35,015 nt of DNA from a virus. Made by a program: the position numbers and the translations under genes. This document shows, piece after piece, positions 979-5,422 of this stretch (positions are counted from its first letter, which is position 1; each line of letters begins with the position of its first letter). A model generated the notes under the pieces. That model did no database searches. It had not been told where the DNA came from and was given only the letters and a program-made list of their open reading frames with translations. The DNA lies in IMG/VR virus record IMGVR_UViG_3300020430_000048, positions 1-35,015 of that record; one strand, 5' to 3'.

Positions 979-1164
979 ATGTGGAAAAAATTTGGAGAAT
1001 GGGAACAAAGAATTTTTTCAGCACCTTACAACTGGTTTATCAAAAAAGGAATCATAATAGCAATAGAAACTTCAAAGCAAATATACATGACTATGGAGGA
1101 TCTTTACGAATCTAGATATGACGAACCTTACAATGGTAATCCTAACTTTCCAGGTGACGATTGA
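979..1164 (+). CDS. Hypothetical 61-aa protein upstream of the methyltransferase
   Basis: I do not recognise this small protein. It starts MWKKFGEWEQRIF, is aromatic-rich at the N-terminus with a short hydrophobic patch (GIIIAIET), and ends acidic (NPNFPGDD). It has no clear Shine-Dalgarno of its own and begins directly after the stop at 977, so it probably depends on translational coupling. Its stop TGA (1162-1164) overlaps the TTG start of the methyltransferase in the four-base TTGA, which ties all three genes together. Confidence 0.5.
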   Translation: MWKKFGEWEQRIFSAPYNWFIKKGIIIAIETSKQIYMTMEDLYESRYDEPYNGNPNFPGDD

Positions 1165-2771
1165 AATTAGGAAGTATGTTTTCAGGAATTGGTGGAATCG
1201 AACTAGGTTTGATGAGATCTGGTTTGGTTTCTGATGTTGCTTGGCAAATTGATACCGATGAATTCTGTACAGAAATCATAAAGCAAAGATTTCCTAATTC
1301 TTTAGTTTTAAATAAAAAAGTAGAAGATATTAATACAAAGTATCTTCCAGAAGTAGACATAATATCAGCAGGGTTTCCTTGTCAACCAGTAAGTGTTGCA
1401 GGAAATCAGAAAGGAATAAAAGATGAAAGATGGTTATGGGACGAAGTTGAAAGATTTATTAATGAGATACGACCACCAATCTTCGTCTTGGAAAATGTGC
1501 CAAACATCCTCAGAGCAAGTGACGGAGAAGCCATTAACCGTGTCCTCAAAGGTGTGGCCGAAATGCGGTATTATCGATTTGAATGGCAACTTATATCAGC
1601 AAAGTTCGTTGGAGCAAGGCACAAAAGACAAAGATGGGTGGGAGTTGGAATCGTGGGAGACACCGAACACTATGGACTACTTAGAACCAAGATCAGGGGA
1701 AGCTTTGGAGAGAGCGTTGTATCGTGGAGATCCAGAGAGGAAGAGCAAAAGAAAAGGTACTGGCAACTTAAGAGAGAATCCGAAACTCTGGTTGACTCCG
1801 ACAACGATGGACAAGAAGGACGATTCCTTGAAACACGCAACGAAATTGATGCAGGGGAAAACAATAAGATCAACAGGACACAGAGTACAAAGAACATTAT
1901 CGGATCAAGTGTGGATGGATATGATAGAACAGGATCCAACAATAATGGAGTTGTACCAGGATCACGAGATGGTAAACAGACCACTACTTCCGAAACAAGA
2001 GGACTGGGTGGAATATCTGAGAAGTCAAACGACAGCAACAGAATTACACAAACTAACAGGGATAAAGAAAACAACAGTGGATCACTGGTTCAGGAAGGAC
2101 AAGCAGGGGTTCAGCTATCCAAGTCTAGAGGATTGGAGCAAGATCAAACCACATCTCAAGGATCTGAAGTTCGAAAAAGAAATGACGACAGTAGAAGTGA
2201 TAGAGTGGCAGCAGAAGGAAGATTGGCCAACACCAACGACTCAGGACACAGAGCACACGAAGATGAAGATAAACGAAAAGGGAAGAAGACTATCAAAAGA
2301 CGGAAAAACGAGTCACAGTCTAAATCTAGCGGACAAAGTTCAAGTAAGACAATTATCTGCGAAAGAGAACTGGTCAACACCAAGAGCAAGTCAAGCCACA
2401 AAACCAGTGAACAAGAAAGCACCATCGGCAGCGAGTGGATCTCACGGATCTACTCTGGAGATGGATGTTGGGGAACGGAATCCAGAGTTGATTGGTCAAA
2501 GACTGAATCCAGAATGGGTGAACAGACTTATGGGCTTCCCAGATGGGTGGCTGAACTTGGAATGAGTAATCCTTGGGGTACTTCTAATATCTGGGAGGAA
2601 GATATATCAAGAGTCAGAACTAGACAAGAAAATGATATCGATAGATTGAAAGCTTTGGGAAATGCAGTTGTACCTCAATTTATAGAATTGACTGGCAGAC
2701 TGATAATAAAATCAATAATTGAAAATACTTTGATATTTGATACTTCAATTACGGAAGATCCTCATTTGTAA
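1161..2771 (+). CDS. dcm: C5 cytosine DNA methyltransferase, overprinted by a nested gene
   Basis: Transfers a methyl group from S-adenosylmethionine to carbon 5 of cytosine in DNA, probably protecting phage DNA from restriction. Core motifs are in order: I (FSGIGG, 7-12), IV with the catalytic Cys (GFPCQP, Cys74), VI (ENV, 111-113), VIII (HKRQRW, 154-159) and IX/X (RLKALGNAVVP, 495-505). The TTG start at 1161 is required because a stop lies two codons upstream and the next ATG falls inside motif I. At 536 aa it is longer than the usual 300-400. Residues ~170-460 are hydrophilic and low in complexity (S, R, N, G, E), with repeats such as VGDTE, LVDSD, LANTN and LVNTK, and show no recognisable target-recognition domain. 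That stretch overlaps a second ORF in the +1 frame. Confidence 0.9.
   Translation: MKLGSMFSGIGGIELGLMRSGLVSDVAWQIDTDEFCTEIIKQRFPNSLVLNKKVEDINTKYLPEVDIISAGFPCQPVSVAGNQKGIKDERWLWDEVERFINEIRPPIFVLENVPNILRASDGEAINRVLKGVAEMRYYRFEWQLISAKFVGARHKRQRWVGVGIVGDTEHYGLLRTKIRGSFGESVVSWRSREEEQKKRYWQLKRESETLVDSDNDGQEGRFLETRNEIDAGENNKINRTQSTKNIIGSSVDGYDRTGSNNNGVVPGSRDGKQTTTSETRGLGGISEKSNDSNRITQTNRDKENNSGSLVQEGQAGVQLSKSRGLEQDQTTSQGSEVRKRNDDSRSDRVAAEGRLANTNDSGHRAHEDEDKRKGKKTIKRRKNESQSKSSGQSSSKTIICERELVNTKSKSSHKTSEQESTIGSEWISRIYSGDGCWGTESRVDWSKTESRMGEQTYGLPRWVAELGMSNPWGTSNIWEEDISRVRTRQENDIDRLKALGNAVVPQFIELTGRLIIKSIIENTLIFDTSITEDPHL
1423..2565 (+). CDS. Nested 380-aa protein in the +1 frame of the methyltransferase gene, HTH-like centre
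   Basis: The whole 1143-bp ORF lies within the methyltransferase gene. Its ATG has its own Shine-Dalgarno (AGAAAGGA, 1408-1415) at 7 bases. The product has an SSSWKMCQTSS motif (20-30), VWPKCGI (44-50), four W-x-T-P motifs (W78, W123, W268, W317), a helix-turn-helix-like segment (TATELHKLTGIKKTTVDHWF, ~204-223, then SYPSLEDW) and a C-terminal LNPEWVNRLMGFPDGW (361-376). From memory, phage proteins with SSWRTSQ, WPRSGM, repeated LPTPTA and a final LNPxFVEWLMGFPxGW form a recurring family near C5 methyltransferases, annotated only as hypothetical or methylase-related. The function is unknown; DNA binding or a methyltransferase partner is inference. Sampled lines here are about 43-47% GC against about 27% in a neighbouring gene. 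Confidence 0.7.
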   Translation: MKDGYGTKLKDLLMRYDHQSSSWKMCQTSSEQVTEKPLTVSSKVWPKCGIIDLNGNLYQQSSLEQGTKDKDGWELESWETPNTMDYLEPRSGEALERALYRGDPERKSKRKGTGNLRENPKLWLTPTTMDKKDDSLKHATKLMQGKTIRSTGHRVQRTLSDQVWMDMIEQDPTIMELYQDHEMVNRPLLPKQEDWVEYLRSQTTATELHKLTGIKKTTVDHWFRKDKQGFSYPSLEDWSKIKPHLKDLKFEKEMTTVEVIEWQQKEDWPTPTTQDTEHTKMKINEKGRRLSKDGKTSHSLNLADKVQVRQLSAKENWSTPRASQATKPVNKKAPSAASGSHGSTLEMDVGERNPELIGQRLNPEWVNRLMGFPDGWLNLE

Positions 2772-3025: not shown

Positions 3026-3075
3026 TAGAGTAGAGTAGAGTAGAGAAGAGTAGATAAGAATAGAGTAGACTAGAC
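3026..3075 (+). repeat. Ten phased TAGAG-type pentamers
   Basis: Ten consecutive pentamers occur in exact five-base register: TAGAG four times, then AAGAG, TAGAT, AAGAA, TAGAG, TAGAC, TAGAC, running into TATATATA and the AAGGAGAG ribosome-binding site of the gene at 3096. The array sits between the inverted repeats and the start codon. One strand is almost pure purine plus T. Its role is unknown. Confidence 0.7.
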
Positions 3076-3095: not shown

Positions 3096-3296
3096 ATGGG
3101 AAAATATTTATTCACTAGGGAAGTAGAAGAACATTTTATTATAAAAGCAGATAGTGAAACAGAAGCTAGAGGTATTTATAATTTAATGACAAATTTTAAA
3201 GATCAATCACTAAATGATATGATTAATCAATTCGAGGTAAGATACGAAGAAAAAATTACAAATTACAAACCTGAGAAAGAGGACGATAATGTTTGA
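3096..3296 (+). CDS. Hypothetical 66-aa protein, paralogue of the next gene
   Basis: It has an excellent ribosome-binding site (AAGGAGAG). The product begins MGKYLFTREVEEHFIIKADS, with EAR shortly after: two likely strands followed by a helix beginning near the Glu-Ala. The next protein (YNVNFVVEANNEAEAF) has the same layout, which suggests an old duplication. The strand-strand-helix pattern with an Ala-x-Ser/Asn-Glu-x-Glu-Ala motif resembles small DpnD/PcfM-like phage and plasmid domains, a weak match by eye. The C-terminus is charged. Confidence 0.6.
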   Translation: MGKYLFTREVEEHFIIKADSETEARGIYNLMTNFKDQSLNDMINQFEVRYEEKITNYKPEKEDDNV

Positions 3297-4345: not shown

Positions 4346-5422
4346 ATGAATATGGGAGAGATAAAATTATCACAATCAAATTATATTAGTTTGGATCTTA
4401 AAGAAGATCTTGAATACGAAGAATGGGTAGAAATAGGAGAGGCACTTACCAATCAAGCAAAACATATTATGTGGTGGCTTGGTGATTGGTGGAATTATGG
4501 CGATCGAAAATATGGAGAATTGGCTTCTCAAGCTTTAGATTTTGGAATACCATATTCAACTTTTAGTAATGCTTCATATGTAGCTAAAAAAATACCTGTT
4601 GAAAGAAGAGTTCCAGAGTTGTCCTGGACACATCATTTTGAAGTTGCATATATTGATGACACAAAAGAAATAGATAAACTTTTAAAAGAAGCTTATGAAA
4701 AAAAATATTCAGTTCGCGATCTAAGATCTGTTGTTAAAAAAAATAAAATTACAAAATTAAATTCTGAAAATAAAGATTTCAATATCGTTGATAGAGCAGG
4801 TGTTAATATAAAAACATCTAATGTTTGGAGTTTTGGTCAATCCGATATAGCCTATGGCGTAGACAATCTACAAAAGACTCCGCCACAAATGATTGCAAAT
4901 TTAATTTATTGGTTTTCAGAACCTGGTACTAGAAAAATAGTGGACATAACTGATAAGTATCAAGTTACATATGATTTAGCAAGTAAATTAAACTTTGAAG
5001 TAGCATCATTTGATCTATATCCTGCCGCAGGAACATCTAAGGTTCAAGAGATAGATTTATCTGTAGAAGCATATCCTAAAGAAGTAAAAGAAGCAGATTT
5101 TATTATCTTTAATGTTTTAGATTTTTTAGATAATCCAATGGATTTAGATGAGGACATGTTCATAAGACAACAGATAATAAGTCTTGGTGTATGTATGAAA
5201 AAAGGAGCAAGACTTATGTTGATATCAAAAGATTTAGAAAAATTAAAAATAGAAAATATTTTTTCTCTAATTTATGAAGAAAATGATTTTTCTATTTTAG
5301 AATTTATTTCTATAAATAACAAAAATAAATTTTCTAAAGATGAAGAGGCACAAGCAATAAAAGATAAAATGCTATTGAATAAGTTTGGATATGTCTTAGT
5401 TCTAGAAAGTCAATCACATTAA
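4346..5422 (+). CDS. ParB-like N-terminal domain fused to a degenerate DNA methyltransferase fold
   Basis: The N-terminal part (~15-130) has EEWVEIGEAL, WWLGDWWNYG, ASYVAKKIP, LSWTHHFEVA and YSVRDLR. In actinophages and other phages this combination precedes MT-A70-type adenine methyltransferase or nuclease domains. The C-terminal half keeps the layout of an amino-methyltransferase (VWSF at 160-163, PPQMIANLIYWFSEPG at 179-194, VD at 199-200, SFDLYP at 221-226, ADFIIFN at 250-256). However, the expected FAGSGTT-like SAM loop reads ITDKYQVTYD, and the catalytic DPPY position reads NVLDF. It is therefore probably catalytically dead and may bind DNA or regulate. The second ATG at 4352 is a possible start. 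It stands alone between the thioredoxin terminator and terL. Confidence 0.65.
   Translation: MNMGEIKLSQSNYISLDLKEDLEYEEWVEIGEALTNQAKHIMWWLGDWWNYGDRKYGELASQALDFGIPYSTFSNASYVAKKIPVERRVPELSWTHHFEVAYIDDTKEIDKLLKEAYEKKYSVRDLRSVVKKNKITKLNSENKDFNIVDRAGVNIKTSNVWSFGQSDIAYGVDNLQKTPPQMIANLIYWFSEPGTRKIVDITDKYQVTYDLASKLNFEVASFDLYPAAGTSKVQEIDLSVEAYPKEVKEADFIIFNVLDFLDNPMDLDEDMFIRQQIISLGVCMKKGARLMLISKDLEKLKIENIFSLIYEENDFSILEFISINNKNKFSKDEEAQAIKDKMLLNKFGYVLVLESQSH

Follow-up and report, generated by a model that had tools for sequence, protein, structure and literature searches.

The methyltransferase locus of the window, the 35,015 nt stretch of viral DNA (IMG/VR record IMGVR_UViG_3300020430_000048) analysed here, very probably encodes, judging from its motifs, one heteromeric DNA (cytosine-5) methyltransferase from two reading frames that overlap on the same strand with a +1 offset. 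The outer protein, alpha, lacks motif IX, and the nested protein, beta, carries a putative target-recognition region and a motif-IX-like segment, which suggests that they are probably two subunits of a single enzyme. Fused, split and nested versions of the locus, and a module that changes frame between relatives, also indicate that a two-subunit C5 methyltransferase is the most likely interpretation. As far as can be judged from the sequences, the nested gene most likely does not yield an independent product with a separate function.

In the proposed arrangement, alpha would supply the catalytic large domain (motifs I–VIII) and motif X. Beta, presumably translated separately from its own ribosome-binding site, would supply the small domain, in which target-recognition modules headed by WxTP, one of them with a helix–turn–helix (HTH)-like insert, are arrayed ahead of motif IX. 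Assembly of the two could restore the I–VIII/target-recognition domain (TRD)/IX/X order of a normal C5 enzyme. Between motifs VIII and X, alpha would be a long disordered spacer, an out-of-frame reading of the beta coding sequence, and we propose that the absence of stops in it serves to keep motif X attached. The beta modules may set which phage DNA sites become methylated, and this methylation would probably protect phage DNA from host restriction.

Layout of the locus and translation starts

Alpha (1161..2771; this and all following features are on the + strand) has 536 aa and a TTG start, and comprises C5-methyltransferase motifs I–VIII, a long unstructured middle and motif X. Beta (1423..2565; 380 aa, ATG start, phrog_1008 match) sits entirely within it in the +1 frame. 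An earlier note on this DNA had described a 380-codon frame at this position, wholly inside a methyltransferase gene and with its own Shine–Dalgarno sequence and ATG, and this description proved exact. The Shine–Dalgarno sequence AGAAAGGA (1408..1415) stands 7 bases before ATG1423, and an in-frame stop at 1417–1419, one codon 5' of the ATG, closes the beta frame upstream, leaving ATG1423 and a single AAG codon as the only possible starts. AAAGGA is kept in 17/17 of the nearest relatives, although just 27 of the 136 other glycine codons in this region of alpha are GGA. A 5-mer Shine–Dalgarno sequence is likewise enriched at beta starts (50/83, versus 96/1257 background ATGs). At its own start, alpha overlaps the ORF before it (979–1164): the TTG and the TGA that ends that ORF share bases at 1161–1164, which suggests coupled translation of the two.

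The outer protein carries motifs I–VIII and X

As judged from motifs I, IV (PCQ), VI (ENV), VIII and X, alpha is a DNA (cytosine-5) methyltransferase chain, and it matches PF00145 (6e-43), TIGR00675 (1e-35, over the cut-off) and phrog_363 (1e-48). Alignment to M.HhaI places the AdoMet-binding motif I, FSGIGG (1179..1196), which is invariant in alignments A2/A4, and motifs IV, GFPCQ with the catalytic cysteine (1371..1385), and VI, ENV (1491..1499), both in invariant columns, as well as the motif VIII region, RHKRQRWVGVG (1617..1649). Motif X, LKALGNAVVPQ (2646..2678), with an invariant LGN..P, is read in the alpha frame 3' of the beta stop, so that the nested frame does end before the last methyltransferase motif, as had been noted. 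When alpha was compared with single-chain C5 enzymes by hhalign, motifs I–VIII were aligned (E 4e-47) and a second match, weak in score and in the right place, fell on motif X. Motif IX was absent from the alpha chain in this comparison, and a motif-IX-like segment ends beta instead. The earlier description of an outer gene with intact motifs thus holds for I–VIII and X and fails for IX, which is located in the nested frame. The AF2 model of alpha adopts the M.HhaI fold over residues 1–170 (pLDDT >77, mostly >90), falls below 50 over residues 211–486 and improves again at the motif X helix.

The nested protein carries a module array and a motif-IX-like segment

The beta protein contains an array of WxTP-headed modules. 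Module A (WETPNTMD...; 1654..1788) is a putative target-recognition module defined in alignment A1. Module B (WLTPTTMD...; 1789..1977) is followed by its HTH-like part (TTVDHWFR; 1978..2178), module C (WPTPTTQD...; 2224..2358) is cleanly missing in four relatives (L015, L016, L021 and L022), and module D (WSTPRASQ...; 2371..2496) completes the array. Beta motif IX (QRLNPEWVNRLMGFPDGW; 2497..2550), with invariant L361, MG, P and GW, follows directly. It was placed by hhalign against single-chain C5-methyltransferases, in which the end of beta fell on their motif IX (RRLTPRECARLQGFPDTF), the right place with a weak score (P 0.057, Prob about 1%). The WxTP modules stand ahead of motif IX, where a target-recognition domain is expected. 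In the –1 frame, the WxTP heads are shadowed by the VGDT, LVDS, LANT and LVNT segments of alpha.

The sole clear whole-length family of beta is phrog_1008 (a partial match, E 1.7e-9), a phage family labelled DNA methyltransferase, and this agrees with an initial impression of likeness to phage proteins that occur alongside methyltransferases. No family for beta was found in NCBIfam, and no match in the PDB by sequence up to E 10; a Pfam match to Period_C (E 0.049, below the cut-off) was taken as chance. The structure model is poor outside the HTH-like part (mean pLDDT 53.8), and about 72–87 in the core of that part. A fold search with beta returned weak HTH matches alone, including the small regulators Aca11, SinR and C.BclI, and none at E 0.001 or better. 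Most beta proteins lack the HTH segment; what stays constant among them is the WxTP modules and motif IX. In Staphylococcus phage Alsa_2 (L042, 1922–3064), a segment with 48% identity over 64 aa to the HTH-like part lies inside an amino-methyltransferase with a TSPPY motif, and this module therefore seems common to unrelated methyltransferase classes.

Both frames are kept open, and selection divides the locus into three zones

When the alpha codons were shuffled synonymously, the nested frame acquired 9.1 stops on average and never fewer than 3 in 2000 trials; with the beta codons shuffled, the alpha frame acquired 16.2 on average and never fewer than 5. None is observed in either frame. Related loci were gathered via the nested protein or the methyltransferase and retained if a nested ORF was present. 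In the main set of 85 distinct loci, both frames are open and the offset is always +1. Over these loci, 846 alpha-frame stops were expected from synonymous shuffling and one was seen, compared with 494 expected and 0 seen for the beta frame within nested ORFs; the latter figure is partly built in, since an open nested ORF was the condition for including a locus, and the alpha-frame count carries more weight. Stops in the nested frame of homologous genes, which the earlier note had named as evidence against a nested gene, are thus absent from this set.

Selection was examined in 17 closely related loci. In these, third-position variation of alpha is 0.39–0.44 outside the overlap and about 0.09 inside it, the opposite of the unconstrained synonymous variation that had been named as a second sign against the nested gene. 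It is 0.06–0.14 over the part of the overlap that encodes motifs V–VIII. In the rest of the overlap, the third codon position of beta is the most variable over most of the stretch. The overlap-aware test that had been suggested was made with an own script that counts site classes in the manner of OLGenie. Where the N-terminal domain of beta (beta 1–77) lies over alpha motifs V–VIII (1423..1653), omega is 0.05 for alpha and 0.09 for beta, values drawn from non-independent pairs with few SS sites. Under the same limits, omega from about beta 78 to 380 (1654..2562) is 0.07 for beta and 1.0–1.3 for alpha.

The overlap is truly double-coding across motifs V–VIII in the nearest relatives. Downstream of motif VIII, beta is constrained and the alpha residues are neutral, but the alpha frame is free of stops (12.3 expected in 1654..2562, 0 seen). 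Together, position variation and omega define three zones. The first contains alpha alone, the second is truly double-coding, and in the third beta is accompanied by a neutral, stop-free alpha reading. The confidence pattern of the alpha model agrees with this division. The proposal that both frames are functional is supported by purifying selection on both over beta 1–77; further on, alpha is merely kept open.

Fused, re-split and module-shuffled relatives

Several relatives distribute the same segments differently between chains. In gp4 of Gordonia phage Sanjuju, one chain carries motifs I–VIII, four LPTP modules, motif IX and motif X. In another form, alpha has motifs I–VIII and beta has both IX and X, preceded in the mycobacteriophages by the target-recognition part; this was found in the mycobacteriophages Zaka, EagleEye, Funston and Ryadel and in loci L096, L105, L146 and L154. 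In seven of eight loci of this form, alpha stops 7–14 residues past motif VIII, compared with a median of 206 in nested loci. The motif X segment of beta in L105 is 51–70% identical to alpha segments of nested relatives. A locus from a Pelosinus MAG (L131, 2299–3555), in which alpha continues in one frame into WxTP modules, IX and X, was considered as a natural single-chain enzyme and downgraded, a leftover beta N-terminus being present in the +1 frame; its one-chain form may be a natural frameshift fusion or an assembly error.

One module also changes frame. Module B with its HTH-like part is read in the beta frame in the window and in the alpha frame in L025, L058, L061, L062 and L065. Residues 114–325 of the window beta are about 50% identical (E<1e-52) to alpha of the last four. 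In L073, module B with the HTH-like part is in beta, after motif IX. WxTP modules are gained, lost and reordered between relatives, and among close relatives there are clean losses, of module C in L015 and of two modules in the comparison of L026 with L024. Exchange of segments between the chains is expected if alpha and beta build one enzyme. It is tentatively suggested that beta may be a swappable multi-target recognition subunit, each WxTP module of which could read a different DNA site. By gaining, losing and moving modules between frames, phages might then retune a split methyltransferase by shuffling within an overlapping gene, with the other frame as a neutral spacer.

No nested motif-IX frame was found in the canonical single-chain phage enzymes of IPP18, EC-F1, Javan65, phiKp_4 and phi3T–SPbeta. 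Alpha was located by profile in the sampled phages.

Comparison with known split and multispecific enzymes

By motif layout, M.EcoHK31I is the best-matching precedent for the window locus. According to the work of Lee, Kam and Shaw in 1995, its small polypeptide was reportedly encoded within the large one in an alternative frame, and the enzyme is said to need the two polypeptides in vitro. C5 enzymes have the motif order I–VIII, target-recognition domain, IX, X; in M.EcoHK31I (specific for YGGCCR), the large subunit has motifs I–VIII and X and the small subunit motif IX, and the predicted TRD is placed in the large subunit (PMC3404938). The enzyme has been termed naturally split (PMC3439449). 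In the window locus, I–VIII and X are similarly on one chain and IX, by a weak-score match, on the other, and the small subunit is nested in +1, an arrangement shared by 85 distinct loci. Unlike M.EcoHK31I, the module array is in the small subunit, and beta, at 380 aa, has several modules and an HTH-like insert.

M.AquI has its catalytic motifs I–VIII on one chain and part of the TRD and motif IX on the other (PMC3404938). The window locus has the same division, but it keeps motif X in alpha, whereas the small subunit of M.AquI carries IX and X. The AquI-type split is seen in the eight loci described above with IX and X in beta, and in Zaka, Funston, Ryadel, EagleEye, L105 and L146 it is in overlapping frames. 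Multispecific phage C5-methyltransferases of the SPR, phi3T and H2 type have serial target-recognition modules between VIII and IX (references listed in PMC8936443). These enzymes are single-chain with a canonical motif IX, whereas the window modules are on a separate nested polypeptide and start with WxTP. The two chains also correspond to two phage families both labelled DNA methyltransferase, alpha to PHROG 363 and beta to PHROG 1008. New here are the breadth of the arrangement in phages, the multi-module beta with an HTH-like insert, the three-zone coding and the movement of modules between frames.

Alternative interpretations

The first reading of the sequence was that the locus makes a second, possibly DNA-binding protein beside the methyltransferase. 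Beta would then be an independent protein, such as a regulator or nuclease partner, embedded by chance in a complete methyltransferase gene. The HTH-like segment, with the best local model confidence and its weak matches to Aca11, SinR and C.BclI, is consistent with this. The methyltransferase gene, though, is not complete without beta, which carries the missing motif IX; in fused and re-split versions, beta segments and methyltransferase motifs share one chain, and it is the HTH segment, rather than the WxTP modules or motif IX, that most beta proteins lack. An independent beta is thus unlikely. Of the original suggestion, the DNA binding probably stands, and the separate function probably does not, since beta carries a segment that alpha lacks. 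The existence of fused relatives (Sanjuju, possibly L131) could instead point to a programmed ribosomal frameshift that joins the frames into one long polypeptide, with separate initiation of beta unimportant. This is still less likely: beta ends at its own stop before motif X, so that two opposite shifts would be required, inspection by eye showed no slippery heptamer at either junction, and the conserved Shine–Dalgarno sequence and the in-frame stop immediately before beta argue for separate initiation.

Two simpler interpretations, in which one of the frames is incidental, are already contradicted. Genes of skewed composition do carry long chance ORFs, and the nested frame might be such a by-product of codon bias or repeats, with alpha alone translated; yet it stays open in 0/2000 synonymous shuffles, beta has omega of 0.07–0.09 and the most variable third positions over most of the overlap, and a beta module is homologous to segments of other proteins, all of which leaves this interpretation practically without credence. 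That beta alone is functional in the overlap, alpha ending early and its reading to motif X being incidental, would fit the neutrality of alpha residues between VIII and X (omega about 1). It is scarcely more credible, given the shortage of alpha-frame stops in this zone and across the 85 loci, the conservation of motif X in the alpha frame, and the termination of alpha right after VIII precisely where beta holds X. A two-subunit enzyme encoded by overlapping frames remains the preferred interpretation.

Distribution and annotation

The nested arrangement is present in IMG/VR contigs and in genomes assigned to many bacterial phyla, including Bacillota, Bacteroidota, Chloroflexota, Planctomycetota, Spirochaetota, Myxococcota, Synergistota, Nitrospirota and Pseudomonadota. 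It is also found in the isolate phages Hades, SEN5, Lc-Nu, Harrison and Jacopo and in the assembled phage cta39025. Long WxTP frames nested in +1 are also present in Haboob and a Klebsiella record, where the motif-IX pattern is unmatched, and most relatives that the first motif search had not picked up have a nested +1 beta too, with a variant motif IX. Matches to the Klebsiella-type gene occur in 37 of 5426 E. coli genomes, mostly over half the query. In a tree of the N-terminal part of alpha, which was quick, with weak deep forks and a sampling that favours nested forms, the canonical single-chain enzymes are one group (99), and overlapping or fused forms arise several times amongst nested ones. 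A long same-strand overlap of this kind, at first considered rare, is not so in phages, and a large group of phage C5-methyltransferases is normally organised with the nested overlap.

Many database records list one frame only, and amongst the annotations examined none names phrog_363 and phrog_1008 proteins as nested subunits of one enzyme. In Paenibacillus phage Jacopo (L043, 2483–3538), gp56 and gp57 are annotated as two overlapping methyltransferases; the records of this phage and of phage cta39025 (L044, 2468–3310) give one frame as a hypothetical protein, or both as DNA methyltransferase, uncommented. A literature search found no description of nested phage C5-methyltransferases; Pavesi's review covers other overlaps.

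In annotation, a large group of phage and prophage C5-methyltransferases appears as single proteins or as pairs of unrelated methylases, and the sequences put the target-reading half in the nested frame. If this is correct, no activity would be expected from expression of the annotated gene on its own, the seeming lack of motif IX would be explained, and the VADTN/LANTN repeats of such proteins would be the out-of-frame shadow of WxTP modules. The locus is an example of a long gene nested completely within another on the same strand, with labour clearly divided between the two, and its natural fused and re-split relatives allow tests of overlapping-gene evolution.

Elsewhere in the window, a 358 aa ORF (4346–5422) with no PHROG match has a thioredoxin-like gene on one side and the gene for the terminase large subunit on the other. 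A TAGAG tandem repeat of 9.8 copies (3026–3074) is situated just upstream of a small ORF (3096–3296).
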